A stretch of 64,000 bases of DNA, taken from NCBI GenBank assembly GCA_016195565.1, contig JACPZK010000031.1, positions 1 to 64,000 on the forward strand, read 5' to 3'. Positions 172 through 59,316 of the stretch are shown piece by piece; position 1 is the first letter of the stretch; every line of letters begins with the position of its first letter. Under the pieces are notes generated by a model that ran no database searches, was not told where the DNA came from, and was given only the letters and a program-made list of their open reading frames with translations. Origin of the DNA: Nitrospirota bacterium (lineage in GTDB: Bacteria > Nitrospirota > Thermodesulfovibrionia > Thermodesulfovibrionales > UBA1546). The position numbers and the translations under genes were made by a program.

Positions 172-1059
172 TTAGTAAATAAAAAGTTTCGGGTCTTTGA
201 ATGTATGGCATTTGTTGCATAAAGATTTTGCCCTCTCAATCCCAACAATCCATGAATGAGGTTTATGGCAATCAAGACAGTTTAATCCCTGTTTCATATG
301 AAGTCCATGCCGTCCTACAGAGGTCTCATTGCGATGGCACTCACTGATGCAGGTGGCAGATGTCGGATTTATTTTTCCGTGCGGTTTGTGACACTGATGA
401 CAGAGCAGGTTAGACATTGGCGCCCTCACAGAAACCCCGGTATGACATTTGACGCATCTGTCCTTCGGAATCATAGAGGGCGTCTTTTCTGAGAAAGAGT
501 GGCATTTAAGGCATGAGAAGGCTTCCATGCCTATGCCGTGAACCCCTTTATCTTTGTGGCAATTCTGGCAGGCGTTTTCGTTTGGATGGAAGTCATGCAC
601 AGTGCCTTTATGACATATCTTACATTCAGTCCCCTGCATAAACACATGCCTGGCATGGCCGTAAGATTTTTTCAGGGTTACAGAGCCCTGAGACACCTCG
701 CTCATATGGCATTTCCTGCACTCCTGCCAGGGTTTTTCCCTGCCGTGTGTCTGGGAGAACTGTTTGCTGCCGCTTTTTACCACATAAGTAACAAGCAGTT
801 GATTCTGTTCAAGAATGCTTAGATGATGACATGTCTGGCAGACGATATCGCGGTGCTTCCCTTTCTGCCATTCCAGAAATGCCTCTCTCATAAGGTGGCA
901 TGAAGCGCAGTACTGAGGGTCGTCTTGTGTGTAGCGGTAATATTTATGTCCGACAACCGCTCCAAGTACCGCAACTATGAGAACAGCAGCGAGAATAAAG
1001 CCTTTTGCTTCTTCAACGCACTTAACAAGCGAGTCTATAACATTTCTGATTTTGCGCAC
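172..1059 (-). CDS. Membrane-anchored multihaem cytochrome c (NapC/NrfH-like head)
   Basis: This is probably a periplasmic electron carrier. It has an N-terminal membrane anchor (GFILAAVLIVAVLGAVVG) and then ten CXXCH c-haem motifs, plus one CXXXCH (CISECH) that could bind an eleventh haem. The first pair, CASCH and CQTCH separated by a KGKHRD stretch, resembles the NapC/NrfH quinol-oxidising family; the later repeats are dense and low in other sequence. The open frame extends to an ATG at 1125, but that start lies inside the upstream potassium-channel gene. The GTG at 1057-1059 sits 10 bases after the channel stop with an AAGGGA upstream and is preferred. The redox partner is not evident from the neighbours. 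Confidence 0.85.
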   Translation of the reverse strand: MRKIRNVIDSLVKCVEEAKGFILAAVLIVAVLGAVVGHKYYRYTQDDPQYCASCHLMREAFLEWQKGKHRDIVCQTCHHLSILEQNQLLVTYVVKSGSKQFSQTHGREKPWQECRKCHMSEVSQGSVTLKKSYGHARHVFMQGTECKICHKGTVHDFHPNENACQNCHKDKGVHGIGMEAFSCLKCHSFSEKTPSMIPKDRCVKCHTGVSVRAPMSNLLCHQCHKPHGKINPTSATCISECHRNETSVGRHGLHMKQGLNCLDCHKPHSWIVGIERAKSLCNKCHTFKDPKLFIY

Positions 1060-1069
1060 TGTAAGAGAG

Positions 1070-2071
1070 CTATCCCTTAGCCGTTGCCATGTCTTCGAGT
1101 GTTTTAAGTTTCGGTATTTCACCAAGGGCTATCAAAGTATCGCCGGCTTTAATGGCAGTCCTGAAAGTTGGATTGAACTTCATATCGCCGCTTGCATTTT
1201 TAATCGCCACAACTATGATGCCCAAATCCCTGCCGATACCGCATTCATCAAGCGTCAGCCCTGCCAGTTTAGAGTTGTTCTGGACTGTTATTTCCTCCAT
1301 CTGAAGGTCAATGTTGCCGCTTTTTGTTGCGAATTCTATAAAATCTACAACAGCAGGCTTTAACACCGTATGCGCTATCCTGAGTCCTCCGATATGATAC
1401 GGCGAAACAACCCTGTCAGCGCCTGCCCTGAGCAATTTCTGCTCTGAGCCTTCCTCCCCTGCCCGTGCAACGACAAAGAGTTTAGGGTTTAATTCTCTGG
1501 CGCTAAGAACCACAAAAAGGTTTTCAGCGTCGGTCGGCAGAACAGATATAAGCCCCTTTGCCTTTTCTATTCCAGCCTCTTTTAAATTCTCATCCTTTGT
1601 TGCATCTCCTTTGAGTATAAGGGTCTCTTCTCCGCTTTCAAATGTGTCGGGCTCTTTTTCAATCACAACAAAATTTATGTCCTTCTCTTTCAGTTCCCTG
1701 CAGATTATCCTGCCCATTCTTCCGTAGCCGCAGACAATGTAATGGTCTTTTAATTCTTTAATTTTTTTTCCCAATCTTTTCCTCCCGAATATTTCCTGGA
1801 TTTCACCCTCTACTACAATCTTTGCGATTGTGGTAAGAGCGTAAGTCACACTGCCTACACCGCTTATTATAAGGATAATAGTAAAAATTCTTCCATTAGG
1901 CGAGAGGTCATGGATTTCCTTGTAGCCGACGCTTGCAATGGTTATAATTGTCATGTAAAGAGAATCAAGGCAGCTCCACCCTTCTATGAGCATATATCCT
2001 GCAGAACCGGCAATCACCACACAGGTTATAAATATCAGAGCGAATATCAGCCTTTTTCTAAGCCCTCTCAA
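1070..2071 (-). CDS. Potassium channel with RCK/TrkA-N and TrkA-C domains
   Basis: This is an MthK/Kch-type K+ channel of the inner membrane. Residues about 8-85 form two transmembrane helices around a pore loop with selectivity filter SVGYKE (TVGYGD-like). An RCK domain follows with a Rossmann GYGRMG motif near residue 115 and an acidic strand end, and then a C-terminal TrkA-C domain (about 255-325). The RCK domain gates the pore in response to nucleotide or Ca2+ in characterised relatives. The cytochrome gene follows 10 bases downstream on the same strand, so the two are probably co-transcribed. The Lys in place of Gly/Asp just after the filter is common among bacterial relatives and is not a defect. 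Confidence 0.9.
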   Translation of the reverse strand: MRGLRKRLIFALIFITCVVIAGSAGYMLIEGWSCLDSLYMTIITIASVGYKEIHDLSPNGRIFTIILIISGVGSVTYALTTIAKIVVEGEIQEIFGRKRLGKKIKELKDHYIVCGYGRMGRIICRELKEKDINFVVIEKEPDTFESGEETLILKGDATKDENLKEAGIEKAKGLISVLPTDAENLFVVLSARELNPKLFVVARAGEEGSEQKLLRAGADRVVSPYHIGGLRIAHTVLKPAVVDFIEFATKSGNIDLQMEEITVQNNSKLAGLTLDECGIGRDLGIIVVAIKNASGDMKFNPTFRTAIKAGDTLIALGEIPKLKTLEDMATAKG

Positions 2072-2230
2072 GGTCCGGCAGCCCTCCCTTCCGAATAATA
2101 TTTACTATTTTATCATCTAATCTTCACTTATGTGTGATTTAATGTAATTTTTTTAGGCTTAATTTTTGTTGCCGTTATTTAATTGCTGGATTTCAGGAAT
2201 CAGAATGGTAAAATATAAATAGAATGAAGA

Positions 2231-2254
2231 ACCCTGCGGCAGAGACCGCAGGGC
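2231..2254. repeat. ACCCTGCGG palindrome, copy 1
   Basis: ACCCTGCGG, loop CAGAGA, then CCGCAGGGC: a 9-base stem with one mismatch at its end. The same hairpin occurs at 61582-61605 with the loop as its exact reverse complement, so the two are inverted copies of one short dispersed element. There is no T-run, so it is not a convincing terminator. Confidence 0.75.
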
Positions 2255-2275
2255 ATCAAAATTTGAACAAATAGC

Positions 2276-2352
2276 CTGTCATTGCGAGGAAGTCGTAGAC
2301 GACTGACGAAGCAATCTCAAAGAAAGATTGCCACGCTACGCTCGCAATGACA
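2276..2352. repeat. TGTCATTGCGAG dispersed inverted-repeat element, copy 1
   Basis: It begins TGTCATTGCGAG and ends CTCGCAATGACA, with internal GAAGCAATCT and AGATTGCCACG blocks that also pair. Six elements of this design are found in the window. It is non-coding here and probably folds as one long hairpin. Confidence 0.85.
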
Positions 2353-2362
2353 CAAAAGGAGA

Positions 2363-2383
2363 CCCTGTAGCAAGACTATAGGG
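2363..2383. repeat. CCCTGTAG/CTATAGGG hairpin
   Basis: An eight-base stem with one G-T pair and loop CAAGA. A degenerate relative (AACCCTGTAGCAAG) lies at about 25838-25850, so it is likely another short dispersed repeat. There is no T-run. Confidence 0.5.
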
Positions 2384-2425
2384 AATTACAAGTTAAACCT
2401 AAATTAATAATGGGAGGTAGAAGCT

Positions 2426-2710
2426 ATGATGTCAAGCATACCGGTAGATATCGGTAAGGTTACAAAGAGCGATGTGGTTAAGGAAATACTGCGCGTGGGA
2501 ATGATAGCAGAGCTGGACGCAATCAGCCTTTACGAACAGCTTGCCGCAATGACAGACAGGGCTGATATTAAAAAGGTTTTTCTTGATATTGCACGGGAAG
2601 AAAAAACCCATGTGGGCGAATTTCAGGAATTGCTTTTGCGTGAAGACAAAGAGCAGGTTGCAGAGCTGAAAAAAGGGAAGGAAGAGGTTGAGGAGCTGAC
2701 AGGGAAGTAA
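2426..2710 (+). CDS. Encapsulin-type ferritin-like (rubrerythrin-fold) protein
   Basis: This 94-residue protein is half of a four-helix ferritin fold that would need to dimerise. Helix 1 carries AELDAISLYEQ with metal ligand Glu29; helix 2 carries AREEKTH with Glu59 and His62 (ExxH). From family knowledge, this pattern and the ending (VEELTGK) closely resemble the ferritin-like domain fused to or packaged in encapsulin nanocompartments, for example the N-terminus of the Pyrococcus furiosus shell protein. A likely role is Fe(II) oxidation or iron storage. Start: ATG after GGGAGG. No shell gene follows; the next 260 bases hold a MITE-like element instead. Confidence 0.8.
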   Translation: MMSSIPVDIGKVTKSDVVKEILRVGMIAELDAISLYEQLAAMTDRADIKKVFLDIAREEKTHVGEFQELLLREDKEQVAELKKGKEEVEELTGK

Positions 2711-2756
2711 AAACAGGGGGAATACAGTTAATAAAATGTTTGTCAGGCATGTATAA

Positions 2757-2932
2757 GGAGGCTGTGTCTGGATTAAGGCAAGATTCACGGGTCAGTCAGA
2801 ATAGGGGCTGAAGTCGCAATGAAATGGAGCGGATAGCCCCGCATAACAGATGTGAAGAACAAAATATATTGCACTAACATTTATACTTTTACAAAGGCAG
2901 TTTAATATTGCCGAAAAACAGGCACAGCCTCC
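2757..2932 (+). repeat. MITE-like element, left copy
   Basis: A 176-base element with terminal inverted repeats GGAGGCTGTG and CACAGCCTCC (perfect over 10 bases, extending to 14 with one mismatch). It contains GGGGCTGAAGTC and GGATAGCCCC blocks that form an internal hairpin. An equally long copy lies inverted at 4200-4375, so the two frame the aminotransferase gene. No clear target-site duplication and no coding capacity were seen. Confidence 0.75.
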
Positions 2933-2972
2933 CATCACATATGCATGCCGAAGATATAAAGTAAACCGCCTT

Positions 2973-4112
2973 TTACTTCATCAGCAGTTCTTCTGCCGCG
3001 GCAACGCCCGCTCCGAGTTTTACCGGATGCCCCATTCCTTTCAACACCATTTCCACGCCTGCAATCGCAGTAATCACATCAAAGGTGTCGGCATAGCCGA
3101 GATGAGCAATCCTGAATATCTTTCCCTTGACATGGTCCTGTCCGCCTGCTGCCGTTATCCCGTATTTCTCTCTTAGGTTCTTATAAATCTCCTGTCCGTC
3201 AATGCCTGCCGGAGCGCATACCGCAGTCACTGAATTGCTCGGAGATTCCTTGGGATAAAGTTCAAGTCCCAGCGCCTTAACAGCCGCCCTTGTAGCATTT
3301 GCAAGCCTTTCATGCCGCTTGAATACATTCTCAAGCCCTTCTGCCCGGAGCAGTTTAATGCTTTCGTTTAATCCTATAATCAGAGTAACCGGAGATGTAA
3401 AGTTTGTCTGGTTCTTTGCGAGATTTTCCCGCTCTTTTTTAAAATTAAAATAGAATCTCGGGCATTTTGATTTTTCCGAGAACTTCCATGCCTTTTCACT
3501 TATGCCTACGAATGCAAGCCCCGGCGGAAGCATCACGCCCTTCTGCGAGCCGCCTATCATTACATCTATCCCCCATTCGTCCATCCTGAGGTCATGGGCC
3601 ACAATTGCTGATATGGCGTCAACAATAAGGATTGTGTTTTCATATTTTTTTACAACCTTGGCAAGCGCCTCTATATCATGATAAACACCTGTTGATGTTT
3701 CTGATGCCTGTACAAACACTCCTTTGATGGACGGGTCATTTTTTAATTTTGCCTCGATAGTCTCAGGTTTTACCGCATATCCCCACTCAACAATAATCTC
3801 TTCTGCCTGAAGCCCGTATGCCTTGCATATCTTGGTCCATCGCTCGCCGAATTTACCGCCGTTTACAGTAAGAACCTTGTCTCCGGGGCTGAAAAAATTA
3901 TTAACAGCGCCTACCATGCCGCCTGTTCCTGTGGAGCATAGGATAAGCACATCGTTTTTTGTCTGGTAAAGCCACTTCAGGCCATTTTTTGCGGCATCAA
4001 GCACAGGGATGAAATCAGGCGAACGGTGATGTATAATCGGCATTGCCATGGCAAGCAATGCCTCTGAAGGCACAGGGGTAGGCCCCGGCGCTAACAGGTA
4101 ACGTTTTAACAT
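2973..4112 (-). CDS. Class V PLP-dependent aminotransferase (serine/alanine-glyoxylate type)
   Basis: A soluble PLP enzyme of 379 residues, the usual length for the family. It begins with the typical APGPTPVP stretch; the PLP-binding STGTGG loop lies near residue 60, VDAISA near 164 (the Asp contacts the pyridine nitrogen), and the Schiff-base lysine is K191 in GGSQKGVMLPPG. Relatives use serine, alanine or aspartate with glyoxylate or pyruvate, and in many anaerobes serve serine synthesis. The substrate cannot be read from sequence. The gene stands alone between two inverted MITE-like elements, and the right copy lies within its 5' leader. Confidence 0.9.
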   Translation of the reverse strand: MLKRYLLAPGPTPVPSEALLAMAMPIIHHRSPDFIPVLDAAKNGLKWLYQTKNDVLILCSTGTGGMVGAVNNFFSPGDKVLTVNGGKFGERWTKICKAYGLQAEEIIVEWGYAVKPETIEAKLKNDPSIKGVFVQASETSTGVYHDIEALAKVVKKYENTILIVDAISAIVAHDLRMDEWGIDVMIGGSQKGVMLPPGLAFVGISEKAWKFSEKSKCPRFYFNFKKERENLAKNQTNFTSPVTLIIGLNESIKLLRAEGLENVFKRHERLANATRAAVKALGLELYPKESPSNSVTAVCAPAGIDGQEIYKNLREKYGITAAGGQDHVKGKIFRIAHLGYADTFDVITAIAGVEMVLKGMGHPVKLGAGVAAAEELLMK

Positions 4113-4199
4113 GAAAAACCTCCTTAAGTTTAAGTGGATGAATAGTTTAAACTTTAAGTATTATCAGAGTCAAGAACAGTGTCGGAACACAATTTTTCA

Positions 4200-4375
4200 A
4201 GAGGCTGCGACTGTTTTTCGGCAATATTAAACTACCATTTGCAAGATTGCAGTGTTAGTACAATATAGCAAGTTTTTACACCTACATATGCGGGGCTATC
4301 CGCTCCGCTTTGCGGAGACTTCAGCCCCTATTCTGACAGATCCGTGAATCTTGCCGCAATCCAGCCCCAGCCCTC
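4200..4375 (-). repeat. MITE-like element, right copy (inverted)
   Basis: A reverse-oriented relative of 2757-2932 and also 176 bases. Shared blocks include GGCAAGATTCACGG, CAGAATAGGGGCTGAAGTC, GAGCGGATAGCCCCGCAT and TTTAATATTGCCGAAAAACA. It holds an extra TCCGC-AAA-GCGGA hairpin that is absent from the left copy. It lies directly upstream of the aminotransferase start and could form part of its transcript. Confidence 0.75.
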
Positions 4376-4420
4376 TGCTGCGTTGGATGTTATAATTAAC
4401 AAAAGCAGTACGGAGGGTTT

Positions 4421-4762
4421 ATGGAATGTATATTCTGCAAGATTATAAATAAGACAATACCCGCAAAAATAATTTACGAGGATGAGTATGTCTTAGCCTT
4501 TGAGGACATTAATCCTCAGGCGCCTGTGCATACCTTAGTCATACCGAAAAAACACATCTCAACCAATCTTGATATTAATAAGGAAGATAACGGACTATTA
4601 GGCCATTTGTTTCAGGTTGCAAATAAGCTTGCAAGGGATAAGGGCATTGCTGAAAGGGGTTTCAGGCTTGTCATGAACTGCAATCCCGAATCAGGACAGA
4701 CCGTATTTCATATCCACCTTCATATTCTCGGCGGAAGGCAGATGCGCTGGCCTCCCGGGTAA
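4421..4762 (+). CDS. Histidine triad (HIT) nucleotide-binding protein
   Basis: A 113-residue Hint-type phosphoramidase. The N-terminal CIFCKI motif and DINPQAPVH stretch are typical, and the catalytic triad HIHLH (HxHxHxx) lies near residue 97, followed by the family's C-terminal RWPPG. Hint proteins hydrolyse adenosine phosphoramidates and aminoacyl-adenylates in the cytoplasm. The start is ATG after GGAGGG (spacing 6). It is monocistronic; the downstream gene is convergent. Confidence 0.95.
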
Positions 4763-8068: not shown

Positions 8069-8219
8069 TTGTTTAATTATATCATTTAACTATCAGACAG
8101 GATATGGCGAACTATTGCTCATTCTCGTCAGGATAATCCGCCGAGTCGGATAGTATGAATCCCGCGTTCAGGAAGCGCTCCATGACTTTATATGCGAGAG
8201 GGATGTAAAACTAATGCCG

Positions 8220-8642
8220 TCAGGTTTGACTTTTAAGGTAGTCAAAGACATCTGATGTCTTCCATATTTTTATGTCCTGAAGGTTATTAAAATGCTTATC
8301 ATTCGACCAGATGCCGTCATTTTCAGTTGATAAAGCAAGGGCGACAAATGGGACATCAAAAGGATCAATACTGCCTATAATCTTATGAGCCTTTCCCGCA
8401 TATGGTTTCAACTTAGAGGCTGGAATAATTGTTACATTTTCTATAATCAAGGATAATACTATCTCAATATCTTCTTTGCTTAAGCCGCTTCGGATAGAAA
8501 TATTGTCTTTATGTCTTTCGATTTCCTCAATGGCATATTCAGGCAGCAGAAAATCTATGGCTGAGAAAAGCAGGATTTCTCTTGTCGCGGAATCTTTAAG
8601 GAGCGCTGCGATGAGAATGCCGGTGTCAATGACTAATTTCAT
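8220..8642 (-). CDS. PIN-domain toxin (VapC-like ribonuclease)
   Basis: A 140-residue PIN nuclease. The acidic residues expected at the active site are Asp6 (VIDTG), the Glu in the YAIEEIERH helix, Asp in DPFDVPFVALAL and the late Asp in SNDKHF. PIN toxins cleave tRNA or mRNA. Its ATG overlaps the antitoxin TGA by one base (TGATG), a standard translationally coupled toxin-antitoxin layout. Confidence 0.85.
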   Translation of the reverse strand: MKLVIDTGILIAALLKDSATREILLFSAIDFLLPEYAIEEIERHKDNISIRSGLSKEDIEIVLSLIIENVTIIPASKLKPYAGKAHKIIGSIDPFDVPFVALALSTENDGIWSNDKHFNNLQDIKIWKTSDVFDYLKSQT

Positions 8643-8866
8643 CAGGCATTCTGGTATTTTTTGGATAAGGCCGTCTTTATCTCGTGGTCCAGAACTTCAA
8701 CATCCTTATCCGTGAGACTGCTTTTAGATGTGATGGACTCCAGCAGTTTTATTTTTTTCGCATAATTCCAAAGCGTATCACTGATAATTTTATCCCAGTC
8801 TATCTCTGTATGCTTTGTAAGAATATCCTTAATATCGGCAGGGATTTCAAAGGCAACCTTAGGCAT
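8642..8866 (-). CDS. Antitoxin of the PIN toxin pair
   Basis: A 74-residue partner directly upstream of the PIN toxin. The N-terminus (KVAFEIPADIKDIL) has the beta-helix start of small DNA-binding antitoxins, and the rest is helical and charged. It starts at ATG behind AAAGGAGG. It should neutralise the toxin and autorepress the operon, as in related modules; a specific DNA-binding fold could not be assigned with certainty. Confidence 0.75.
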   Translation of the reverse strand: MPKVAFEIPADIKDILTKHTEIDWDKIISDTLWNYAKKIKLLESITSKSSLTDKDVEVLDHEIKTALSKKYQNA

Positions 8867-8999
8867 CTTTTCCTCCTTTTAGGTTTCTTAACGAAATTAT
8901 AACACAGTTGCAGAATCATTTCAGGAACATATTTGCTGTTTTAATTCTATGACTTTGCACTTCTAATCTTCCGCGCTTCCGGGCTATGGAACTTCCGCG

Positions 9000-9089
9000 C
9001 TATTTTTTCTGAAACACAAACAAATGCTCGTGCATGATGAGGAGGAAGTTATAGAGCTTTGATTTCTTGACCCAAAAGCCGGTTGCTTT
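9000..9089 (-). pseudogene. C-terminal fragment of a DNA-methyltransferase-like gene
   Basis: A 29-residue frame ending in TAG reads KATGFWVKKSKLYNFLLI and then MHEHLFVFQKK. This resembles the last strands of site-specific DNA methyltransferases (FLLIxHEYLFVFRK). Just upstream a KHNC stretch lies in the expected place but is separated by about 26 bases (9090-9115, rich in CTCGCCGAG) that break the frame. Nothing further of the gene is seen. It looks like debris from an old modification system in this accessory island. Confidence 0.45.
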
Positions 9090-9125
9090 GTCGTCTCAGC
9101 AACTCGCCGAGGAGAGCAGTTGTGC

Positions 9126-9362: not shown

Positions 9363-9438
9363 GTAACCTCCTTTTCTTAATCATTGATCAAAATGGCGGG
9401 GTTTGTCCAGAGGCTATACGTCTCACGAGAAAAAAGCT

Positions 9439-10548
9439 TTAGGTAGGGATATATTCTTTTTCTACGCCATCAATATATCTACCATTTGGCAGGTTCAAAA
9501 GGACTGCAATATTCTGTCTTCTGACAGCTCGTCTAAAAGTTCTGACTTGTTTGTCAGTCCAACCCTTGTGAATATAATATTCTTCACTTGATTGGTCTTT
9601 AGCCCGAGGTTTATAGCCATCAGTGATACTATCTAACGGTCTGAATCGACAATCGATTACTCTGACACGCCATCTCCTACAAGCCTCAAGTTTTAACCGC
9701 ATTTCTTCATACGAAAAGTTATGATTAAAAAGCATAAAGATAAAAATGTCATTAGTAGAATAGCCTGCATTTTTTAAGACCTGAATTTGTTCTTTAATTT
9801 TAGGCCAAAGACTGTATGGGCCATCCCATGCTATGCGGGGATGAAGAAAACGCGCTTTTTTTAAAAAAAAAGCAATTTCAGGGTCTTTGATAAGGAGCCT
9901 GCCATCCAATCCGCTTTGACTCTCACAATGAACTTTACTCTTATCAGGTAATTTATATTCGGCGATTTCCGAAAGAATGGTTTTGATGTGAGGGTTTGCT
10001 ATCAAGTTGTTGTCATAAAAAACAAGCCTCTTCTTTTTGATTTCATTTTTGATAGATGTTTTATAAGTGACCCATGGTTCTATTTTCCATGTGCCGCAAA
10101 AATTACATTTCCTGAAGCACCCTCGTGAAGCATGTACTATCTGATAATCAACATCTATCATATCGTAAGCTGGTTCATATTTCTCTGCTATACCGTTTCG
10201 ATAAAGCCCAACCTGTACGTCATCGCATCCAGACTGCTTGGCATGTTCAGGCATTAAAGAAGCATATATGCCACCCACTTGAATTCTTGCCTTTGGATAT
10301 AAAGTTCTGTAGAAATTAACGCTATCCCATACATGCGCTGACCAATAGGTAAACAGAGACGTAACCTTTATTTCATCAGGATATGACTTTGCTTGATAAT
10401 TGCCTCTGTGCAACTCGACTTTGTCTCCTTGTTTCCTGTGATAAGCAGCAATTTTTAAAAGGCCAATAGGTAAAAAATTGCAGTGATTCTTGCTCTTGGC
10501 TGGGATAGGGAAATTCGGCTCGACAAGAAGAATGTTGGTCTTCAACAA
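9439..10548 (-). CDS. Radical SAM protein, last gene of a putative defence-like cluster
   Basis: A 369-residue protein with a degenerate B12-binding-like N-terminus (NILLVEPNFP, LPIGLLKIAAYHRK, QVGGIYASLMPEHAK) and a radical SAM core with cluster motif CFRKCNFC (Cys144, Cys148, Cys151; CX3CX2C). Strand ends such as FYDNNL and RIAWDGP fit the partial TIM barrel. The substrate is unknown. It starts directly after the stop of the upstream gene, so it belongs to the same transcript as the two genes before it. A radical SAM enzyme beside an HSP90-like ATPase is unusual and suggests nucleotide or macromolecule modification (inference). Confidence 0.75.
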   Translation of the reverse strand: MLKTNILLVEPNFPIPAKSKNHCNFLPIGLLKIAAYHRKQGDKVELHRGNYQAKSYPDEIKVTSLFTYWSAHVWDSVNFYRTLYPKARIQVGGIYASLMPEHAKQSGCDDVQVGLYRNGIAEKYEPAYDMIDVDYQIVHASRGCFRKCNFCGTWKIEPWVTYKTSIKNEIKKKRLVFYDNNLIANPHIKTILSEIAEYKLPDKSKVHCESQSGLDGRLLIKDPEIAFFLKKARFLHPRIAWDGPYSLWPKIKEQIQVLKNAGYSTNDIFIFMLFNHNFSYEEMRLKLEACRRWRVRVIDCRFRPLDSITDGYKPRAKDQSSEEYYIHKGWTDKQVRTFRRAVRRQNIAVLLNLPNGRYIDGVEKEYIPT

Positions 10549-11553
10549 TTAGTTCCCCATCTTTTGATTTTGCCATAACGTTGCAAAATGTTTCGTGTTT
10601 TTAATTATGTCAGTAGGATCAACAGTGTTTACTGGCAGATCCTCAATTGAGGAGTTAGAATATGATATCAGCCTCTTTTTTTCTACTGTTAGAAAAGGAG
10701 TTCTTAGAAATTCTTCGGGTTTTTGTATATGGTAAGTTCTAATACTAGTGTCTAAAGCCCCAGCGATTGTGAAAGTGACAAGACGATGATCACCAGTGCC
10801 TTTGTAATAAATTGCTGGTAAAAGATAACAGGAAAAATTACAGTGCTCATAATTACGTCTTATGATGTCTAAAATGTACGACTTTAAGAACCTTATTTGC
10901 TTTTCTTCCTGTGTTAATCGCTTAATTTTATGAAAATAATCTTTTAAATATTTCGATTCTGGTTGATTTTGAAATATTTGCATTTCTTTGTCTCGGTGTG
11001 AAGCATGAACAGTTAGAAACATTATAAATTTTTTAGAGTGCGAGCTTGCTGTAATATCTCTTTGAATCTCTAATAATTTCTTTATCGCGTGAGATTTATA
11101 GACACGCTGCGTATTCCCCTTGTCATCAACAATAAGTAGCGGCGACGTTATTTCATTGCAAAAATCGAGATTATAGATTGTTACCACATCATTTTGCGAA
11201 AAAATATTGCCAGATATATCACGACCCCGCAATACTACTTCCTCTATATATCCGTCATATAGACTAAATGTTTTAATCAAACCTTTTCTTTCCAAATCCT
11301 TCAATTTATTTTCTATTGCTACAACTTTGCTTCGTGGCTGGCTGCTTGACGATGGGTTGGGATAATCTCTACATTGAAAAGCTATAATTTGATCGATATA
11401 ATCAAGCCATTCTGTAATATCAGATAAATCGACTCCAGGAAGCCCAAGGTAAAGAAGTTTATATTTTAGAGTAGAGTAGATAAATGAGACGAGTTTTTTG
11501 CCCCATTCAGTTCTTATTATGCCTTTAGCTGGATTGTCTTTATAATCTCCCAT
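10549..11553 (-). CDS. Unrecognised protein of the HSP90-like/radical SAM cluster
   Basis: A 334-residue protein that I do not recognise. Its N-terminal part holds YLGLPGVDLSDITEWLDYID. The middle has a strand ending VTIYNLDFCNEI and then PLLIVDDKGN, reminiscent of a Rossmann-type or phosphoribosyltransferase/methyltransferase fold, followed by KFIMFLTVHASH. No catalytic motif can be named. The start codon overlaps the stop of the HSP90-like gene (TAATG) and the radical SAM gene follows immediately, so the three products are probably made together. Confidence 0.65.
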   Translation of the reverse strand: MGDYKDNPAKGIIRTEWGKKLVSFIYSTLKYKLLYLGLPGVDLSDITEWLDYIDQIIAFQCRDYPNPSSSSQPRSKVVAIENKLKDLERKGLIKTFSLYDGYIEEVVLRGRDISGNIFSQNDVVTIYNLDFCNEITSPLLIVDDKGNTQRVYKSHAIKKLLEIQRDITASSHSKKFIMFLTVHASHRDKEMQIFQNQPESKYLKDYFHKIKRLTQEEKQIRFLKSYILDIIRRNYEHCNFSCYLLPAIYYKGTGDHRLVTFTIAGALDTSIRTYHIQKPEEFLRTPFLTVEKKRLISYSNSSIEDLPVNTVDPTDIIKNTKHFATLWQNQKMGN

Positions 11554-13211
11554 TATTCTTCGCTAAATAAATCCTCTATTTCTGACTGCAATTTCTTTAA
11601 ATTATCTATATAGTCTTCTTTATTTACAGAAGTTCCTTGTATATATCTTTCATCAATTAATTCAAGCACTGTTCTTAATTGATCATTCATTGGTAAGTCG
11701 AGAGATTCAAACACTTCGAGTAAATTCTCCGGTTCCTTTTCTTTGACTGATTTTCTTGTGGATGGCAGTTTTTTAATCTCATCTAACATAGCTATTTCTG
11801 GTAATTTTTTGAATTTTAATATCTTTGTTTTTTGTCTTTTCTGATTTATTAATTCCTGTATCTTCTTTTCAAGCGTCCGCGCGCTCTTAACAAAACTTTC
11901 AGCGTCGTTTATCCTATCCGACCTAATGGCTTTTCTGTTTAATCTTCCTTTAATTTGATCATAATACGTTCTTATTTCAACAATCATATCCACCAAATGC
12001 TCTGGATGTTCTGCAAAATATCCAACATTCGCATATAGTTCTTTCAGCTTTTCAATAGCGGTATCTAACTGCTCGTCGCCTTTAGTGTACTCTTGATATT
12101 CATTTGCTTTATTGTTGTAATAACTCGCCACATTGTTTAAGCCTTCGTAAAAAAGGGAGCTTAATGGAGAAATTTCAAAATCACTTCTGGCAGCATTGGG
12201 TAATAAATCACGATGTACGACGATAACTTCTCCTATATAGCGGTCAAAAAAAGTAGTTCTGCCAAAATATTTACCAACGTCTGCTCTATCACCAATTGCA
12301 AACCCCTGTTTTTTTATTAAGAAGCCCCGTAAAGCTTTCTCTCCAATTTTTTTCCTTGCTGGATTAAGACAACCCCACGTTACGCCGAAAAAAATTTCTT
12401 TATTTTTAACTTCCTTGAAAAAAGGCTCATTAGGATATCCCTTAAATTGCTCATCTGCGTACGGTCTGTATAGCTTTTCGATTCTACCATGAACCTGTAG
12501 GGTTAAATTAATTAATTTAAATTCCGCGTTATGCTGCTTACATATTGTAGTTATTCTGTCCTCAATTTTATTTGCCCATCTAAATTTATCACTATTGAAA
12601 TGAAGGGGAACAACTTGTTGAAGATAATCGGCAACCTCCTCGAATTTTGAAAGTGATTTAAAAAAAATTGGCTCAAGCCCGACCATTTCAATACGTGTTC
12701 CTATTTTTTTATAATCAGATCCCTCCAATTTAGATAGAGTGATATTATCTTGAAGTAAAGATTGTAAGTCTATCAGGTTGTCATTAGTTATTTTGCCAGC
12801 TAAACGAGCAGATTGTTGGTCGTTTAATTTATTTCTCATAGAATGAAAATCAAAAGATAAAAGAGATGGTGCTGATGAATTGTTCTTAGGTTTTGAATAA
12901 ATATCAAGTCGCTTACATAGATGAAATGAGCTGTAAATGCCAATACCCCTAAATCCGACATCTACGGAAGGATTTTTATCAGAAATACCAACTCGAATAG
13001 CCTTTTCTAAAGTTTCTTTATCCATACCAAAGCCATCATCTTCGATCGCAATGGAATCTGTTCTTATCTTTATCTCAATATTCTGAGCGTTAGCGTCAAC
13101 ACCATTTTGAATATACTCACGAAGAGCATCACGGGGGTCCGGGTATATACCTTTTGTTAGGATAGATATAACTTCTGCCCCAATATCATGTTTTGTAATT
13201 CTTAGAGCCAT
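11553..13211 (-). CDS. HSP90-like GHKL ATPase of a putative defence cluster
   Basis: A 552-residue protein. The N-terminal GHKL ATPase domain (about 1-200) shows the N-box REYIQNGVDAN (catalytic Glu32, Mg-binding Asn36), the DDGFGM motif at 58-63 and the GFRGIGIYSS lid motif at 86-95, as in HSP90, MutL and MORC proteins. A middle domain follows (VVHRDLLPNAARSDFE near 340), and the C-terminus is largely charged helix or coiled coil (400-552). Such stand-alone ATPases recur in prokaryotic conflict systems next to nucleases. Here a PLD nuclease gene lies 57 bases upstream. It is AT-richer than the housekeeping genes around it, consistent with transfer. Confidence 0.82.
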   Translation of the reverse strand: MALRITKHDIGAEVISILTKGIYPDPRDALREYIQNGVDANAQNIEIKIRTDSIAIEDDGFGMDKETLEKAIRVGISDKNPSVDVGFRGIGIYSSFHLCKRLDIYSKPKNNSSAPSLLSFDFHSMRNKLNDQQSARLAGKITNDNLIDLQSLLQDNITLSKLEGSDYKKIGTRIEMVGLEPIFFKSLSKFEEVADYLQQVVPLHFNSDKFRWANKIEDRITTICKQHNAEFKLINLTLQVHGRIEKLYRPYADEQFKGYPNEPFFKEVKNKEIFFGVTWGCLNPARKKIGEKALRGFLIKKQGFAIGDRADVGKYFGRTTFFDRYIGEVIVVHRDLLPNAARSDFEISPLSSLFYEGLNNVASYYNNKANEYQEYTKGDEQLDTAIEKLKELYANVGYFAEHPEHLVDMIVEIRTYYDQIKGRLNRKAIRSDRINDAESFVKSARTLEKKIQELINQKRQKTKILKFKKLPEIAMLDEIKKLPSTRKSVKEKEPENLLEVFESLDLPMNDQLRTVLELIDERYIQGTSVNKEDYIDNLKKLQSEIEDLFSEE

Positions 13212-13268
13212 TTTTATTCCATTCTTATAGATATTTTAAGGTTAGTAAATAATAAAGCAAATTAAATC

Positions 13269-14093
13269 TTATTTCCATAATTTTCTATAAACTCCTCTAT
13301 CTACAAACTGTAATAAGCCCAAATCCCTCAACTTCTGCAACTGTTGCCTGCTTTTCTCTTGAATCTTTGTATTGCGCGGATGCAAGGTTTTTAATCTCTC
13401 TTCATATTTATAAACTGCATTTAACCTGAAAACATCGGAATCAATCTCATTCAGCACAGTAAACACATCTTTTACCCATCCCGATAAATTGTTCTGAATG
13501 GATTCGATGCCGCCCTCATATCTATCAACTTCTATGTCTTCTTCCGTAACTTTTTTAAAAAGGTCTTTGTCTTTTAACTCAAATTTAGGTTTCTTTTCTT
13601 TCGGTACAGATTGCAGTATATTGTAAGCTTTGCTAATGATTTCAGCTGTGATTATTCCTGTTGCTTCAGTATCTTTAAAAACTTTCCTGTAATCTTCAGC
13701 TATTTTAGCTGTGAGTTCTTCATCATTGATTAAAAGACCATACTCATAATTATTGAGTAATCCCCCTGAGGTCAGATTGCCTGAGGTCACAACAGATTTT
13801 CTTTTATCGAAAATAAAGACTTTTGCATGTAACTGGTGGTAACTTTTGATAGTCGCATCTCGTTTATGAAGGATTTCCAGAGCTTCAAGGTCTGATGCTC
13901 CTCTATAAAAGTTTGAGAGCTTAAAGCTGTTCAGATAATCAATATTAACGCTTGAGTTTGCATGTTCAACAATTAATGAGGAAACACTTTTTTTGATATA
14001 AGGACTTGCGAGTTGAATACTCTTTCGCGATTCTTTTATGAGTCTGATAAAGTCAGATCGCCACGGAGATTTTAAAATTCTGATATTTTCCAG
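13269..14093 (-). CDS. PLD-superfamily nuclease with C-terminal winged-helix-like tail
   Basis: The frame is open from a TAA at 14106-14108. The best start is CTG at 14091-14093, because GGAGGG lies about 5 bases upstream; no ATG is available and the GTG at 13790 would remove the active site. The 274-residue product has one phospholipase-D HKD motif, HAKVFIFD (His89, Lys91, Asp96), followed by TSGNLTSGG. Its C-terminal KSRQQLQKLRDLGLLQFVD and VYRKLW resemble the winged helix at the end of some type II restriction enzymes. A single HKD motif implies a dimer, as in BfiI/NgoFVII-type nucleases. It is probably the effector nuclease of this cluster. Confidence 0.7.
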   Translation of the reverse strand: MENIRILKSPWRSDFIRLIKESRKSIQLASPYIKKSVSSLIVEHANSSVNIDYLNSFKLSNFYRGASDLEALEILHKRDATIKSYHQLHAKVFIFDKRKSVVTSGNLTSGGLLNNYEYGLLINDEELTAKIAEDYRKVFKDTEATGIITAEIISKAYNILQSVPKEKKPKFELKDKDLFKKVTEEDIEVDRYEGGIESIQNNLSGWVKDVFTVLNEIDSDVFRLNAVYKYEERLKTLHPRNTKIQEKSRQQLQKLRDLGLLQFVDRGVYRKLWK

Positions 14094-14180
14094 AAATCCC
14101 TCCGATTAAATTGCTATGGTATTAGATCATAAATAAGCTATTTATGTCTATATCTTGCCCCCCTCCGCCCCCCCAAAATT

Positions 14181-14255
14181 CGCCAGCAGTTGCAGATTTT
14201 GAGAGACAAAGGAATTCTAAAGTTTAAAGGGAAGGGGAGATATCAGATATTTTAA
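14181..14255 (+). pseudogene. Fragment of a restriction-enzyme-like winged-helix C-terminus
   Basis: The plus-strand frame reads RQQLQILRDKGILKFKGKGR and ends YQIF before TAA. It is strikingly like the C-terminal tail of the PLD nuclease next door (RQQLQKLRDLGLLQFVDRG) and the tail of DpnI-like enzymes. No gene body precedes it, only a C-rich stretch (14156-14175). It appears to be the stump of a second, opposite-strand restriction-like gene. Confidence 0.5.
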
Positions 14256-14545
14256 GGATGGGGTGTTACGGCTATAATGGTTATCTGTTTGTTTCCGGGA
14301 CCATAATACCAGAAGATTCTGTATGCAGAAGGAGTGGACTGTTCAGCATATGCCTCAAATATTTTTTCTCCGTTAGGGCCTTTGAGCGAAGTGAATTCGT
14401 GCGTCTTAAGCCCTGGATGTCTCGGATTTTGAGATAGAAACAGGAGTGCTTTCTTTACGGCCTTGTATCTTTTTGAAAGTCCCTTGTCAGCCTTGGGTCT
14501 GTTTAACTGCTCCCTTGCCTCATCGGTCAGAAATATATCAAACAA
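14252..14545 (-). CDS. RelE/ParE-like toxin
   Basis: A 97-residue protein of the RelE/ParE fold: an N-terminal helix pair (LTDEAREQL, RYKAVKKALLFLSQNPRHPG), a LKTHEF strand, the AYRIFWYYG core strand and a C-terminal ITIIAVTPHP strand. Relatives cleave mRNA on the ribosome or poison gyrase; which applies cannot be read here. It follows its presumed antitoxin by nine bases. Confidence 0.8.
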   Translation of the reverse strand: MFDIFLTDEAREQLNRPKADKGLSKRYKAVKKALLFLSQNPRHPGLKTHEFTSLKGPNGEKIFEAYAEQSTPSAYRIFWYYGPGNKQITIIAVTPHP

Positions 14546-14554
14546 GAGTTGACC

Positions 14555-14803
14555 CTATAACTCTTTTATATAGAGCTTTGAAATCTTGCCTTGAGCGGCT
14601 TCTTTTAATCCTTTGTGGACACTTTTGAGCGCAGCTTTATTTTTATAAAGCCATCTCTCGGAAGGCGGAATGGTTTCCAATAAGATTGCTAATCTGTTGA
14701 ACTCATCCATATCAATAACAGCAGCAACCTTATAGCCTTTTCTGTCGGTTAGGTATTGCTTTACTTTAATAAGCTCGGATTCTTGTTTCAAAGCAGTCGG
14801 CAT
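14555..14803 (-). CDS. Antitoxin partner of the RelE-like toxin
   Basis: An 82-residue protein upstream of the RelE-like gene, starting at ATG behind AAGGAG. The central AVIDMDEFNRLAILLE and the C-terminal SVHKGLKEAAQGKISKL match the toxin-binding end of Phd/YefM-type antitoxins, though the N-terminal DNA-binding half is not classical. The two genes form a type II toxin-antitoxin module at the edge of the accessory island. Confidence 0.75.
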   Translation of the reverse strand: MPTALKQESELIKVKQYLTDRKGYKVAAVIDMDEFNRLAILLETIPPSERWLYKNKAALKSVHKGLKEAAQGKISKLYIKEL

Positions 14804-49833: not shown

Positions 49834-50988
49834 ATGAGAAAAAAGTTTTTAGTATTTGGAAGTCCAATGATAGAACAGCCAGAAATAGACGAGGTGGTTG
49901 CCTCTTTGAAGTCTGGTTGGATCGGTACAGGACCGAAAGTTCACAAGTTTGAAGGAATGTTCAAGGAGTATAAGGGGAGGAGATTTGCCATAGCATTAAA
50001 CTCTTGTACATCTGCATTACACCTTTCTATGCTCGTCATAGGAATAAAACCCGGGGATGAAGTTATTGTTCCAGCAATGACATTTGCAGCAACAGCCAAC
50101 GCAGTTATACATACAGGCGGAATTCCTATTTTTGCTGACTGCGAAAAAGATACGATGAACATTGATCCAGAAGATATCGAGCGAAAGATTACTTCAAAAA
50201 CAAAGGCTATAATTCCAGTTCATTTTGCAGGTCGGGCAGGTAATATGGATGCCATAATGAATATTGCTAAAAGGCATAATATGAGAGTAATAGAAGATTG
50301 CGCACATGCTATAGAATCAGAGTATAAAGGTAAAACGACAGGTACTTTTGGAGAATTGGGTTGTTTTAGCTTTTATGTCACAAAAAATATTGTGACTGGG
50401 GAAGGGGGAATGGTTATTACAGATAATGAAGATTACGCTAATAAAATTAAGATATTGGCGCTTCACGGAATGAGTAAAGACGCATGGAGGAGATTCAGTG
50501 ATGAGGGATACAAACATTATCAAGTGGTTTATTCAGGATTTAAATATAACATGATGGATATTCAGGCAGCGATTGGAATTCACCAATTGCCCAGGATAGA
50601 GAAATATTGGAAACGGAGGCAGAAAATATGGAACAGATACAATGAAGCCTTTAAGGATTTACCAGTTTTTACCCCTGCACCAGTAGAACCAAATACTCGT
50701 CACGCTTATCATTTATATACTCTACTGCTTGATATAGACAACTTAAAAATTACCAGAGATAAATTTTTAGATGAAATGACAAAACAAAATATTGGGATTG
50801 GCGTGCACTATATTGCTTTGCACTTGCATCCTTATTATCAAAATACTTACGGTTATAAAAGAGGTGATTTTCCAAATGCAGAATGGATTTCAGACAGGAC
50901 AGTCTCTCTCCCTATTTCAGCAAAGCTGACAGATGAGGATGTGGAGGATGTGATAGAGGCAGTAAGTGCTATCATTGTAAATCTATAA
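49834..50988 (+). CDS. DegT/DnrJ/EryC1/StrS sugar aminotransferase
   Basis: A 384-residue PLP enzyme that transaminates nucleotide keto-sugars. Motifs are SGWIGTGPKVHKFE, NSCTSALHLSML, TFAATANAV, VIEDCAHAI (Asp155) and the PLP lysine Lys184 in FYVTKNIVTGEGG. It should make an amino sugar for the surface glycan. It is the first structural gene after the ops-like element. Confidence 0.94.
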   Translation: MRKKFLVFGSPMIEQPEIDEVVASLKSGWIGTGPKVHKFEGMFKEYKGRRFAIALNSCTSALHLSMLVIGIKPGDEVIVPAMTFAATANAVIHTGGIPIFADCEKDTMNIDPEDIERKITSKTKAIIPVHFAGRAGNMDAIMNIAKRHNMRVIEDCAHAIESEYKGKTTGTFGELGCFSFYVTKNIVTGEGGMVITDNEDYANKIKILALHGMSKDAWRRFSDEGYKHYQVVYSGFKYNMMDIQAAIGIHQLPRIEKYWKRRQKIWNRYNEAFKDLPVFTPAPVEPNTRHAYHLYTLLLDIDNLKITRDKFLDEMTKQNIGIGVHYIALHLHPYYQNTYGYKRGDFPNAEWISDRTVSLPISAKLTDEDVEDVIEAVSAIIVNL

Positions 50989-50989
50989 A

Positions 50990-52282
50990 ATGAACCTCGC
51001 AAAAGAGAGTTTCTATACACTTGTATTTCAGATTTCAGGCTTTATATGCGCAACTGTTGCAGGGATAATTATAGCAAGAGCATTAGGACCTTCTAATAAA
51101 GGAATAGTCGCTATAGCACTTCTTTATCCATCGTTTTTTTTTACTATATTCAATCTCACTTTTGGACTGAGCATAATGCACCACATGGGCAAAATGGAAT
51201 ATGGTGTAAAGACCTTCTCTGGCAGTGCACTGATTATTTTAATCGCGATGAGTGTTTTATCTATGTCTGTTTTCTTTGTTACTGTTGGCCTTTTCAGAGA
51301 AACTCTTTACAAGGGAATAGAGATAAAGTATCTAACAATTACAGGTATTTCAGTCCCTTTTTATCTAATGCTTTATTACTTTTCTTCGATACTTCAAGGA
51401 AGTATGGACATTAAAGGATATAACATATCTAATCAGCTTTCATCATTCTCGAATCTTTTTTTTATATTAATATTTATTTTTTTGTGGAGATTTACAGCAT
51501 TGGAGGCAGTAATTGCCGGAATAAGTGGAATCGTGTTAGGGGGGGTATTTTCTCTCTGTAAGGCAATTAAAAGAGCAGGAGGAATTTCTTTTAATAAAAA
51601 ACTTGCTGGTGTCCTTATAAAAGACGGAGCAAAGATTCACTTAGGCGCAATAGCTACTTTTATATTTAATCAGGCCAGTTTTTTTATACTCAATTATTAT
51701 GCGGTACCATCTGAAGTTGGTTATTACTCTGTTGCATTTAGCCTTGCAAATATCATTTTTTTCTTTTCCATATCTCTGGAAATAGGGCTTTATCCAAAAA
51801 TGGCACATGCTACCATGGAAGAAGCAGTTGAGCTTATTCAAGTAGCAACAAGACAAATACTTCTTATAACAGCTTTAGCCGCTCTGATTATGGCGGCTTT
51901 TTCAAAATACATAGTTTTGATTTATGGCGGAGAAGCGTTTCTTCCATCTGTAACCCCTCTAATTTTACTTCTGCCAGGAGTGGTGATGTTTGTAATCCCT
52001 AAGATACTTTCAACCCTCTGGGTACGTAAGGGATGGTTTTTACCGCTCACATTTATTGCAACAGGTATGGCTGTTTTAAGTCTTATACTAAATCTTTTAC
52101 TTATATCAGGATTTGGAGCAAAAGGTGCAGCTATTGCAACGACCATGACGTATGCACTGTCAAGTTTTATCGGACTGCTCTTGTACTGGAAATATATAAG
52201 CAGAGACATATCGAGTCTTTTTATTCCTAAACGTGCAGACTTTACGATTTATCGAGAAATATTAGCTGTATTTAAAAGATGA
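50990..52282 (+). CDS. Wzx-type polysaccharide flippase (MATE/MOP superfamily)
   Basis: A 430-residue integral membrane protein with about twelve helices. It shows the family start FQISGFICATVAGIIIARALGP, which is split here as FQISGFICATVAG and ARALGPSNKG, and a late ILSTLWVRKGWFLPLTFIA. It would flip undecaprenyl-linked repeat units. Its start lies one base after the aminotransferase stop. Confidence 0.92.
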   Translation: MNLAKESFYTLVFQISGFICATVAGIIIARALGPSNKGIVAIALLYPSFFFTIFNLTFGLSIMHHMGKMEYGVKTFSGSALIILIAMSVLSMSVFFVTVGLFRETLYKGIEIKYLTITGISVPFYLMLYYFSSILQGSMDIKGYNISNQLSSFSNLFFILIFIFLWRFTALEAVIAGISGIVLGGVFSLCKAIKRAGGISFNKKLAGVLIKDGAKIHLGAIATFIFNQASFFILNYYAVPSEVGYYSVAFSLANIIFFFSISLEIGLYPKMAHATMEEAVELIQVATRQILLITALAALIMAAFSKYIVLIYGGEAFLPSVTPLILLLPGVVMFVIPKILSTLWVRKGWFLPLTFIATGMAVLSLILNLLLISGFGAKGAAIATTMTYALSSFIGLLLYWKYISRDISSLFIPKRADFTIYREILAVFKR

Positions 52283-53223
52283 AAATAAAAATGCTATCTA
52301 AAGAAGAATGGTTAGAGATATTGGAGAAGTGTCCTGATGCGACTTTTTTTGCAACGCCTGAGTGGGCAGAGGTTGTTGAAAAAACCTATGACTATAAGAA
52401 CGTTACAAAACTATTTGTATTTGAGGATGGGCAGAAAGTGCTATGCCCTCTTGTGAGGACTAATAAAGTGTATGGTATTTTTTCTCAACATCTCTCTGTG
52501 CCGTTTCATAATTATGGAGGTTTTTTTTCAAATGAAGAAATTTCAGAGATAAAAGTGGAAAAAATAATAAAATACCTTACAAACGGCCTCACAATGGGCG
52601 TGACTATTTGTCCCCATCCACTTTCGCGAGTTAAGTATCCAGCGGAATACATCGCGGATAAGTATTCAACACATATTTTAGATCTCATTCAGGGCTTTGA
52701 GTACATATGGTTTGAGTATGAAGATAAGGATCAGGCAAGGAAGGCAAGGAAGGAAGGAGTGACAATCAGGTTAGGAGAAACTATTAATGACTTCAGAATA
52801 TACGATGAAATGTATTCTGATTCTGCTAAGCGTTGGGGTTTGAAAGAATGTCAACCTCTTAAGCTTTATGAAAATCTCTATAATTTAGGAAGCAACAGGA
52901 TAAATCTCTGGCTTGCAAGGCATAATGAAAAGGATATAGCAGGTATAATACTTGGATATTTTAATGAGATAGTTGTTTACTGGGGAGGAGCCTTTTTGTA
53001 CGAATATGGGAGGCTCAGACCAAATAACCTTCTTATGATTGAAGCGATAAAGGATGCATGTGAAAAAGGGTATAGATATTTTGATTTCCTTCCAAGTGCA
53101 GGAATTGAAGGGGTGGAGAAGTTTAAGGAGAATTTTGGGGCAGAAAAACATGAATATTTTGCTTATAACTTTCAAGGAAAATTATTAAATATGCTAAGGA
53201 AGTTTAAAGGATTACAGTCTTAA
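52279..53223 (+). CDS. FemAB/GNAT-like acyltransferase
   Basis: A 314-residue protein with FATPEWAEVVEKTYDY near the start, LARHNEKDIAGIILGYFN in the second GNAT repeat and YFDFLPSAGIEGVEKFKENFGA, the signature of the FemAB-related (BioF2-like) GNAT family found in exopolysaccharide loci. It probably adds an acyl or aminoacyl group to a sugar. It overlaps the flippase by four bases (ATGA). Confidence 0.82.
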   Translation: MKIKMLSKEEWLEILEKCPDATFFATPEWAEVVEKTYDYKNVTKLFVFEDGQKVLCPLVRTNKVYGIFSQHLSVPFHNYGGFFSNEEISEIKVEKIIKYLTNGLTMGVTICPHPLSRVKYPAEYIADKYSTHILDLIQGFEYIWFEYEDKDQARKARKEGVTIRLGETINDFRIYDEMYSDSAKRWGLKECQPLKLYENLYNLGSNRINLWLARHNEKDIAGIILGYFNEIVVYWGGAFLYEYGRLRPNNLLMIEAIKDACEKGYRYFDFLPSAGIEGVEKFKENFGAEKHEYFAYNFQGKLLNMLRKFKGLQS

Positions 53224-53249
53224 GAAAAAAGTAAACAAAAGAGGAAGTA

Positions 53250-59311: not shown

Positions 59312-59316
59312 ATTTT
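59287..59316. repeat. Copy of the asnB 5' end (A)
   Basis: Thirty bases beginning ATGTGCGGAATCTGCGGA match asnB 61643-61672 with two mismatches. It overlaps the end of the GT4 gene in another frame and runs into the start of the following methyltransferase. Confidence 0.85.

Follow-up and report, generated by a model that had tools for sequence, protein, structure and literature searches.

Introduction

GHKL (Hsp90/MutL/MORC-like) ATPases are known constituents of restriction systems (PMC2292703; PMC12137116). As far as the operon descriptions of Iyer (2008; PMC2292703) extend, MORC and paraMORC restriction-modification operons place a GHKL ATPase beside a nuclease, sometimes of the HKD/PLD type, in the company of SF2 helicases and methylases, and DNA looping by the ATPase has been proposed for them, while in Shedu VcSduA a GHKL clamp is thought to control the nuclease (PMC12137116). 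Restriction may also be tied to a DNA mark: PbeABCD requires such a mark for its action, and 320 of 553 PbeAC pairs occur without dnd genes, for which reason a different marking enzyme has already been suggested (PMC6459918). Dnd and BREX systems have been surveyed extensively (PMC10853773; PMC12839542). Here we analyse a cassette at positions 9439-14093 (minus strand) of a 64,000-nucleotide stretch of Nitrospirota bacterium DNA (GCA_016195565.1, contig JACPZK010000031.1; hereafter, the window), in which four genes encode, in transcription order, a PLD-family nuclease, a GHKL ATPase, a 334-residue protein denoted P3 and a radical S-adenosylmethionine (SAM) enzyme.

An original prediction, made from the sequence of the window, had proposed that these genes form an undescribed conflict system, with the ATPase licensing the nuclease upon invasion and the remaining two proteins modifying a nucleotide or macromolecule. 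We consider it likely that the cassette is a defence system. Our specific reading, which may equally well prove right or wrong, is that of a mobile restriction-type anti-phage cassette whose radical SAM enzyme marks DNA and whose GHKL-P3 complex licenses the PLD nuclease.

A mobile cassette of four genes

The compact layout that had been noted, with four genes on one strand of which the last three overlap or abut, was borne out by open reading frame coordinates and domain matches. The PLD nuclease gene (13269-14093; 274 aa, CTG start) is separated by a 57-nt gap from the GHKL gene (11553-13211; 552 aa), which overlaps the P3 gene (10549-11553; 334 aa) by 1 nt, and P3 in turn abuts the radical SAM gene (9439-10548; 369 aa, TTG start). 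A conserved block of 4.8 kb that encloses all four (9380-14185, no strand assigned) is 94.3% identical at the DNA level to a block in G010, a genome from another genus of the same family, where the same genes stand in identical order at an unrelated site (locus L003, G010:C79) and the flanking sequences are unrelated. Since the housekeeping rpsB-tsf-pyrH DNA of the two genomes is only 77% identical, the four-gene block is not a chance arrangement and was recently transferred in one piece, as befits a mobile cassette. Its distribution is patchy (2 of 296 genomes of the phylum); P3, searched for in 61 relatives and then in the 296 genomes, was found in one other genome, G010. Synteny with the sister genome G001 breaks just upstream of rpsB, and an empty site is therefore not readable there.

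A modular family built around a radical SAM-GHKL pair

Scanned with the radical SAM alignment, 84,980 species genomes and viral contigs together yielded 99 loci; loci were analysed by gene calling, clustering and profile assignment, and those with a full-length radical SAM gene numbered 100. A GHKL gene lies directly downstream on the same strand in 78 of these 100, with a 4-nt overlap in 45, and within 9 kb in 86. Among plasmids, tblastn recovered 12 records with a radical SAM relative, all 12 of which also carry a GHKL relative, located within a few kilobases of the radical SAM gene at the inspected loci. The hosts include Alpha- and Gammaproteobacteria, Acidobacteria, Verrucomicrobia, Planctomycetes, Magnetococcales and others, and restriction and other defence genes are abundant around the pair, in line with the expectation that the loci would lie in defence neighbourhoods. 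By gene content, the window cassette is one variant of a widespread modular family with radical SAM and GHKL proteins as its constant element.

The accompanying modules were sorted into seven types. Module A, consisting of a ParB-like protein, a protein of ~139 aa, an SNF2 helicase and another ParB-like protein, is present at ~50 loci; module B, a PIN_8 protein with a GHKL ATPase of its own, at about 27; and module C, the DndB/DpdB-like DGQHR proteins, in a small form at 42 loci and in a large form at 15. Module D comprises two unknown proteins and a GHKL ATPase, and module E, PbeA, PbeC and a small protein, at L012 and L057. Module F is the P3-GHKL combination, accompanied at several loci by a DndH-like HerA ATPase (L032, L063, L073), and module G is the window type. 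Among these neighbours are relatives of the components of modification-dependent restriction (PbeA, E 5e-224; PbeC, 2.5e-118; DndH-like HerA, 4e-49; DndB/DpdB-like, 1e-16; SNF2 helicase and PIN). Like the window type, every other well-populated variant has a nuclease or helicase module adjoining the radical SAM-GHKL pair.

In L057 (3964-11929), PbeA, PbeC and the small third gene adjoin the radical SAM gene directly, and in L012 (1615-10368) they share one gene run with it; neither locus has a recognisable Dnd modification set. L012 additionally encodes a ParB_N protein, and another whose match to an HD domain is sub-threshold. The four-gene ParB-like/SNF2 module is exemplified by L047 (5060-8977); its ~139-aa protein has no Pfam or PADLOC match, and the module could on its own be a possible defence module that would merit study.

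P3 and the radical SAM protein are without a PADLOC match, the PLD and GHKL proteins match PADLOC models through generic nuclease and ATPase similarities, and the Pbe and Dnd models match no protein of the cassette, Pbe relatives being confined to L012 and L057. Nor was a description of a radical SAM-GHKL system found in open-access full texts, a search that did not extend to subscription papers. The family is apparently undescribed, and the prior statement that no named system is known with this exact set agrees with both the PADLOC models and the open literature.

GHKL ATPases as putative adaptors and their partner P3

The window GHKL protein matches HATPase_c_3 (2.5e-17), its best sequence match in the PDB is the Hsp90/HtpG N-domain, and the Bergerat-fold ATP-binding residues are invariant in the GHKL alignment. 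A tree of 122 GHKL proteins showed that partner class is shared with the nearest neighbour by 81 of 81 proteins encoded after a radical SAM gene, by 25 of 25 encoded after PIN and by all five encoded after f14. Because tree neighbours share their partner class in this way, the GHKL ATPases look like adaptors that co-evolve with the partner gene. In this tree the window protein groups with the P3-paired GHKLs, which places it in the P3-pairing subtype.

The GHKL-P3 pair stands beside a radical SAM gene at five unrelated loci (L032, L035, L049, L063 and L073), and P3 adjoins the GHKL gene in all five distant cases; L035 keeps the gene order of the window, GHKL-P3-radical SAM, after which comes the second GHKL gene that is usual in the family. 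Of the four cassette genes, those for GHKL, P3 and radical SAM accordingly stay together in unrelated genomes, whereas the PLD gene was observed with them in the window and in one 94%-identical copy only and may not be an obligate member. A profile built from the P3 relatives without the window protein matched a single open reading frame of the window, P3 itself (E 1.1e-6), and also found the fifth relative, in L032. P3 has no relative in the plasmids or viral contigs searched.

For the fold of the 334-residue protein, which the original prediction had left to modelling, an AlphaFold model of moderate quality was obtained (predicted local distance difference test score, pLDDT, 64; predicted template modelling score, pTM, 0.72). 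Nearly all leading Foldseek matches of this model are class I methyltransferases (E 2e-5 and up), so that P3 is predicted to adopt the Rossmann fold of class I methyltransferases; its glycine loop is altered (LGLPG, unusual for motif I), and the position of motif IV is taken by 'NLDF'. P3 matches NF047698 (PP_RS20740 family) with 29.7 bits (E 3.8e-7) against a curated cut-off of 200 bits, and three of four distant P3 relatives tested also match it weakly; the two probably belong to the same superfamily and not to the same family, as far as profile comparison indicates.

Proteins of DUF5131 (phage Gp37/Gp68) that carry a three-cysteine motif are encoded near P3 in L049 (1552-2328), L063 (8722-9633) and L073 (16456-17334), and one lies close to the radical SAM gene of a phage (L092, 5852-6625). 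Their presence near the P3 loci raised the idea that P3 is a TcmP relative, which was rejected: hhalign gave a probability of 0.1% (from shallow alignments), and a TIGR04474 search of the same genome produced a match elsewhere on the contig and none to P3.

A B12-type radical SAM enzyme with phage relatives

Pfam matches of the radical SAM protein fall below the curated cut-offs (Radical_SAM, 0.002; B12-binding PF02310, 3e-4). The assignment is nevertheless confirmed by a match to PHROG_9298 (1.8e-35), by the CxxxCxxC motif, present in all 101 relatives, and by the predicted fold, an N-terminal B12-binding-like Rossmann domain followed by a radical SAM core (AlphaFold pLDDT 88.5). By domain layout and motif the enzyme is of the B12 type and may bind cobalamin. 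Its best solved structural matches are MiaB with RNA (1.9e-9), MtaB and the B12-dependent methylase CysS, and it is predicted to modify nucleic acids. MiaB is a nucleic-acid-base-modifying radical SAM enzyme that acts on tRNA, and CysS is a B12 radical SAM methylase.

Weak hidden Markov model matches are to HpnR, BchE and PhpK, all B12-type enzymes, and could point to a housekeeping role outside defence, such as lipid or cofactor methylation. We regard this as very improbable, given the patchy distribution of the cassette, its recent transfer and flanking toxin-antitoxin genes, and the occurrence of its relatives on plasmids and in phages and among restriction genes. Just as improbable is the proposal that the enzyme produces an antiviral small nucleotide, or takes part in the maturation of a cofactor or peptide, while the neighbouring ATPase and nuclease share no more than a location with it. 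Viperins (pVip) are indeed antiviral radical SAM enzymes, and the original prediction had drawn this parallel, but it was not borne out: the protein matches no PADLOC family at E<=1, the N-terminal domain is of the B12 type, the fold is closest to MiaB and CysS, and the radical SAM gene tightly overlaps GHKL genes across phyla.

Orphan relatives of the PHROG_9298 family occur in phages (L091, L092, L093, L105 and L131-L136). The L091 protein, 48% identical to that of the window, is encoded beside the terminase large subunit, and the neighbours are a primase in L092, a ParB-methylase and terminase in L093 and a phage methylase in L105; in annotated phages, the relatives lie near genes for DNA methylases, Holliday junction resolvase, SSB and SNF2 helicases. 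Phages benefit from marking their own DNA, and the phage proteins are, from this genomic context, candidate DNA modification enzymes.

The same neighbourhoods bear on whether the substrate is instead RNA, either tRNA or phage mRNA, in which case the system would be RNA-directed or abortive. The likeness to MiaB and MtaB and the PIN-type module (PIN domains often being RNases) with its own GHKL at about 27 loci speak for RNA. Most partner modules, however, are relatives of DNA-directed proteins (PbeA/PbeC, DndH, DndB, SNF2, ParB-like and PLD-winged-helix proteins), the phage orphans stand among DNA methylases, terminase and primase, and the N-terminal domain is B12-like, the alignment revealing no conserved cysteines there for a MiaB-type second cluster. 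An RNA substrate consequently appears rather unlikely.

The PLD nuclease, the adjacent methyltransferase and the genomic setting

The PLD protein combines PLDc_2 (2e-14) with a DpnI_C/Dam-replacing winged helix (DpnI_C, 4e-23) and contains a single HKD motif (HAKVFIFD...SGN). From these features it is predicted to be the effector that cleaves, with a domain for reading DNA. The CTG start, preceded by GGAGG, is supported by the G010 orthologue (L003:8597-9421; 92% identical, 274 aa), which has the same length and begins with TTG at the same residue. The possibility that the protein is a class I DISARM DrmC was rejected, DISARM_DrmC_I scoring 45.7 bits against a cut-off of 133 and over the PLD part only, and no cassette protein matches DrmA or DrmB in PADLOC.

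In G010, an intact N4/N6 DNA methyltransferase gene follows the radical SAM gene (L003:3822-4580). In the window it is reduced to C-terminal pieces on the minus strand, one at 8997-9092 (75% identity, one internal stop) and a second at 8142-8261 (50% identity, two internal stops), which account for the methylase debris noted in the original prediction. With its PLDc_2 and DpnI_C domains and a possibly cognate methyltransferase, intact in L003 and a remnant in the window, the protein may be a type II restriction enzyme of the PLD kind. The main rival to a single system, and a fairly unlikely one in our estimate, is that two units lie side by side, an ordinary PLD-DpnI_C restriction enzyme that has lost its N4/N6 methyltransferase here and a separate GHKL-P3-radical SAM system of the modular family; it takes this place because the PLD gene is known from two near-identical copies only. 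In favour of two units, DpnI_C belongs to the domains of restriction enzymes, G010 has a type II-like methyltransferase immediately beyond the cassette, a 57-nt gap sets the PLD gene apart from the three abutting genes, and PLD homologues are absent from the plasmids, the 150 related genomes and the other radical SAM loci searched. Against this, the 94%-identical block moved all four genes, its edges lying outside the PLD gene, the methyltransferase was not retained, and the other well-populated variants likewise place a nuclease or helicase module beside the pair.

In the L003 region (278-4580), the 3' end of the DNA methyltransferase gene occurs in five degenerate copies, ~0.8-1.0 kb apart. 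Toxin-antitoxin-like genes lie between these, and the final copy is the intact gene; the window cassette too is flanked by such remnants (8142-8261 and 8997-9092). The pattern suggests that insertions struck the 3' end of one gene repeatedly, giving rise to a small array of defence cassettes.

The cassette has a GC content of 33-39% compared with ~43% in the surrounding DNA and is, as described beforehand, an AT-rich island. Of the two toxin-antitoxin pairs that were said to flank it, the one at 8220-8866 is well supported by a clear PIN_2 toxin (2e-26), whereas the one at 14252-14803 has a sub-threshold RelB match and nothing stronger in the domain search. A second AT-rich stretch of the window (49834-60082; 34-40% GC) reads like a surface-polysaccharide locus, with genes for an aminotransferase, a flippase-like protein, glycosyltransferases, methyltransferases and a separate radical SAM protein.

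A putative mark-linked restriction system

Starting from what was computed directly, namely the gene set and its joint transfer, the radical SAM-GHKL and GHKL-P3 pairs, the partner-specific GHKL clades, the folds and the relatedness of the neighbours to known proteins of modification-dependent restriction, the following mechanism can be envisaged. The B12-type radical SAM enzyme would modify host DNA in an unusual way, attaching a methyl group or another carbon substituent to a base at a position that is unreactive. The GHKL ATPase would act as an ATP-driven clamp that samples DNA together with P3, its dedicated partner and putative specificity or sensing subunit. On encountering DNA without the proper mark, the GHKL-P3 complex would license the PLD-winged-helix nuclease by means of ATP, the DpnI-type domain reading the DNA and the PLD nuclease cutting it. 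The licensing step, already put forward in the original prediction, is reasonable by analogy with the GHKLs of MORC/paraMORC and Shedu-type restriction systems. We infer that DNA is the substrate, that unmodified DNA is attacked, that P3 provides specificity and that the PLD protein is the cleaving effector. The polarity may also be the opposite, with attack on marked DNA, because DpnI itself cuts methylated DNA.

A DNA mark is suggested by the modules, which include relatives of the DNA-mark proteins PbeA, PbeC, DndH and DndB/DpdB, and DNA is the favoured substrate because the orphan phage enzymes stand in DNA neighbourhoods. That the radical SAM enzyme marks DNA has at best an even chance, possibly less. 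The fuller and more tentative proposal, rather less likely than not, is a new class of self/non-self marking in which a carbon-centred DNA mark is written by the B12-type radical SAM enzyme and enforced by GHKL ATPases, each having co-evolved with a nuclease or reader module (PLD-winged helix with P3, PIN, helicase-ParB, PbeAC or HerA), and in which phages carry the writer as camouflage for their genomes.

Several points weigh against the proposed mechanism. It was derived computationally throughout, from genes and models; in particular, the DNA substrate is deduced from neighbourhood and fold, and MiaB acts on tRNA. The PLD gene is known from two near-identical copies only, those of the window and of G010, and the fold of P3 comes from a moderate-confidence model built from six sequences, in which the cofactor motif is degenerate. 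Furthermore, the window variant keeps the P3-type GHKL adaptor and lacks both the usual GHKL downstream of the radical SAM gene and the DndB and ParB-like proteins, and the usual set may need genes absent from the window, such as the methyltransferase that is intact in G010.

If the proposal is correct, a mark made by radical chemistry would join methylation, phosphorothioation and deazaguanine as a basis of restriction, GHKL ATPases would be plug-in adaptors for different nucleases, the phage PHROG_9298 proteins would acquire a testable role, and there would be an answer to the question why many PbeAC pairs have no known marking enzyme nearby. The system occurs in cultured strains, among them Novosphingobium aromaticivorans (plasmid pNL1) and Rhizobium leguminosarum WSM1325 (pR132505), and the DNA modification can thus be sought directly.

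Comparison with known defence systems

Among described systems, MORC/paraMORC operons resemble the cassette in that a GHKL ATPase adjoins a nuclease, with helicases and methylases nearby; yet within the operon descriptions of PMC2292703 a radical SAM enzyme is nowhere mentioned and no P3-like protein was seen. Shedu VcSduA likewise pairs a GHKL domain with a nuclease, but as one fused protein with a PD-(D/E)XK nuclease and without radical SAM or P3 (PMC12137116). DpnI_C winged helix-turn-helix and PLD nuclease domains are both known in restriction enzymes of the DpnI and NgoFVII types, whereas the window protein fuses the two, and its gene shares an operon with those for GHKL, P3 and radical SAM. 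The PHROG_9298 phage proteins belong to the same family as the window radical SAM enzyme but are encoded singly, surrounded by genes for replication, methylases or packaging.

Dpd systems, which act through 7-deazaguanine in DNA, contain DpdB, a DpdE-like SNF2 helicase and PLD proteins. All three kinds of protein have counterparts among the parts of the radical SAM-GHKL family, the DndB/DpdB-like proteins included; by contrast, no TGT (DpdA) is found among its recurrent proteins, the constant enzyme being a B12-type radical SAM protein. DndCDEA-PbeABCD, in which restriction is linked to phosphorothioate, has a comparable organization, a mark with an exchangeable restriction half, and shares with the family DndB-like proteins and, in L012 and L057, PbeA and PbeC. 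The window, however, encodes no Pbe protein, and the family has radical SAM enzymes and GHKL ATPases in place of the sulphur machinery. Mark-linked restriction is a known kind of defence; should the DNA modification be demonstrated, the family would contribute a novel type of mark to it.

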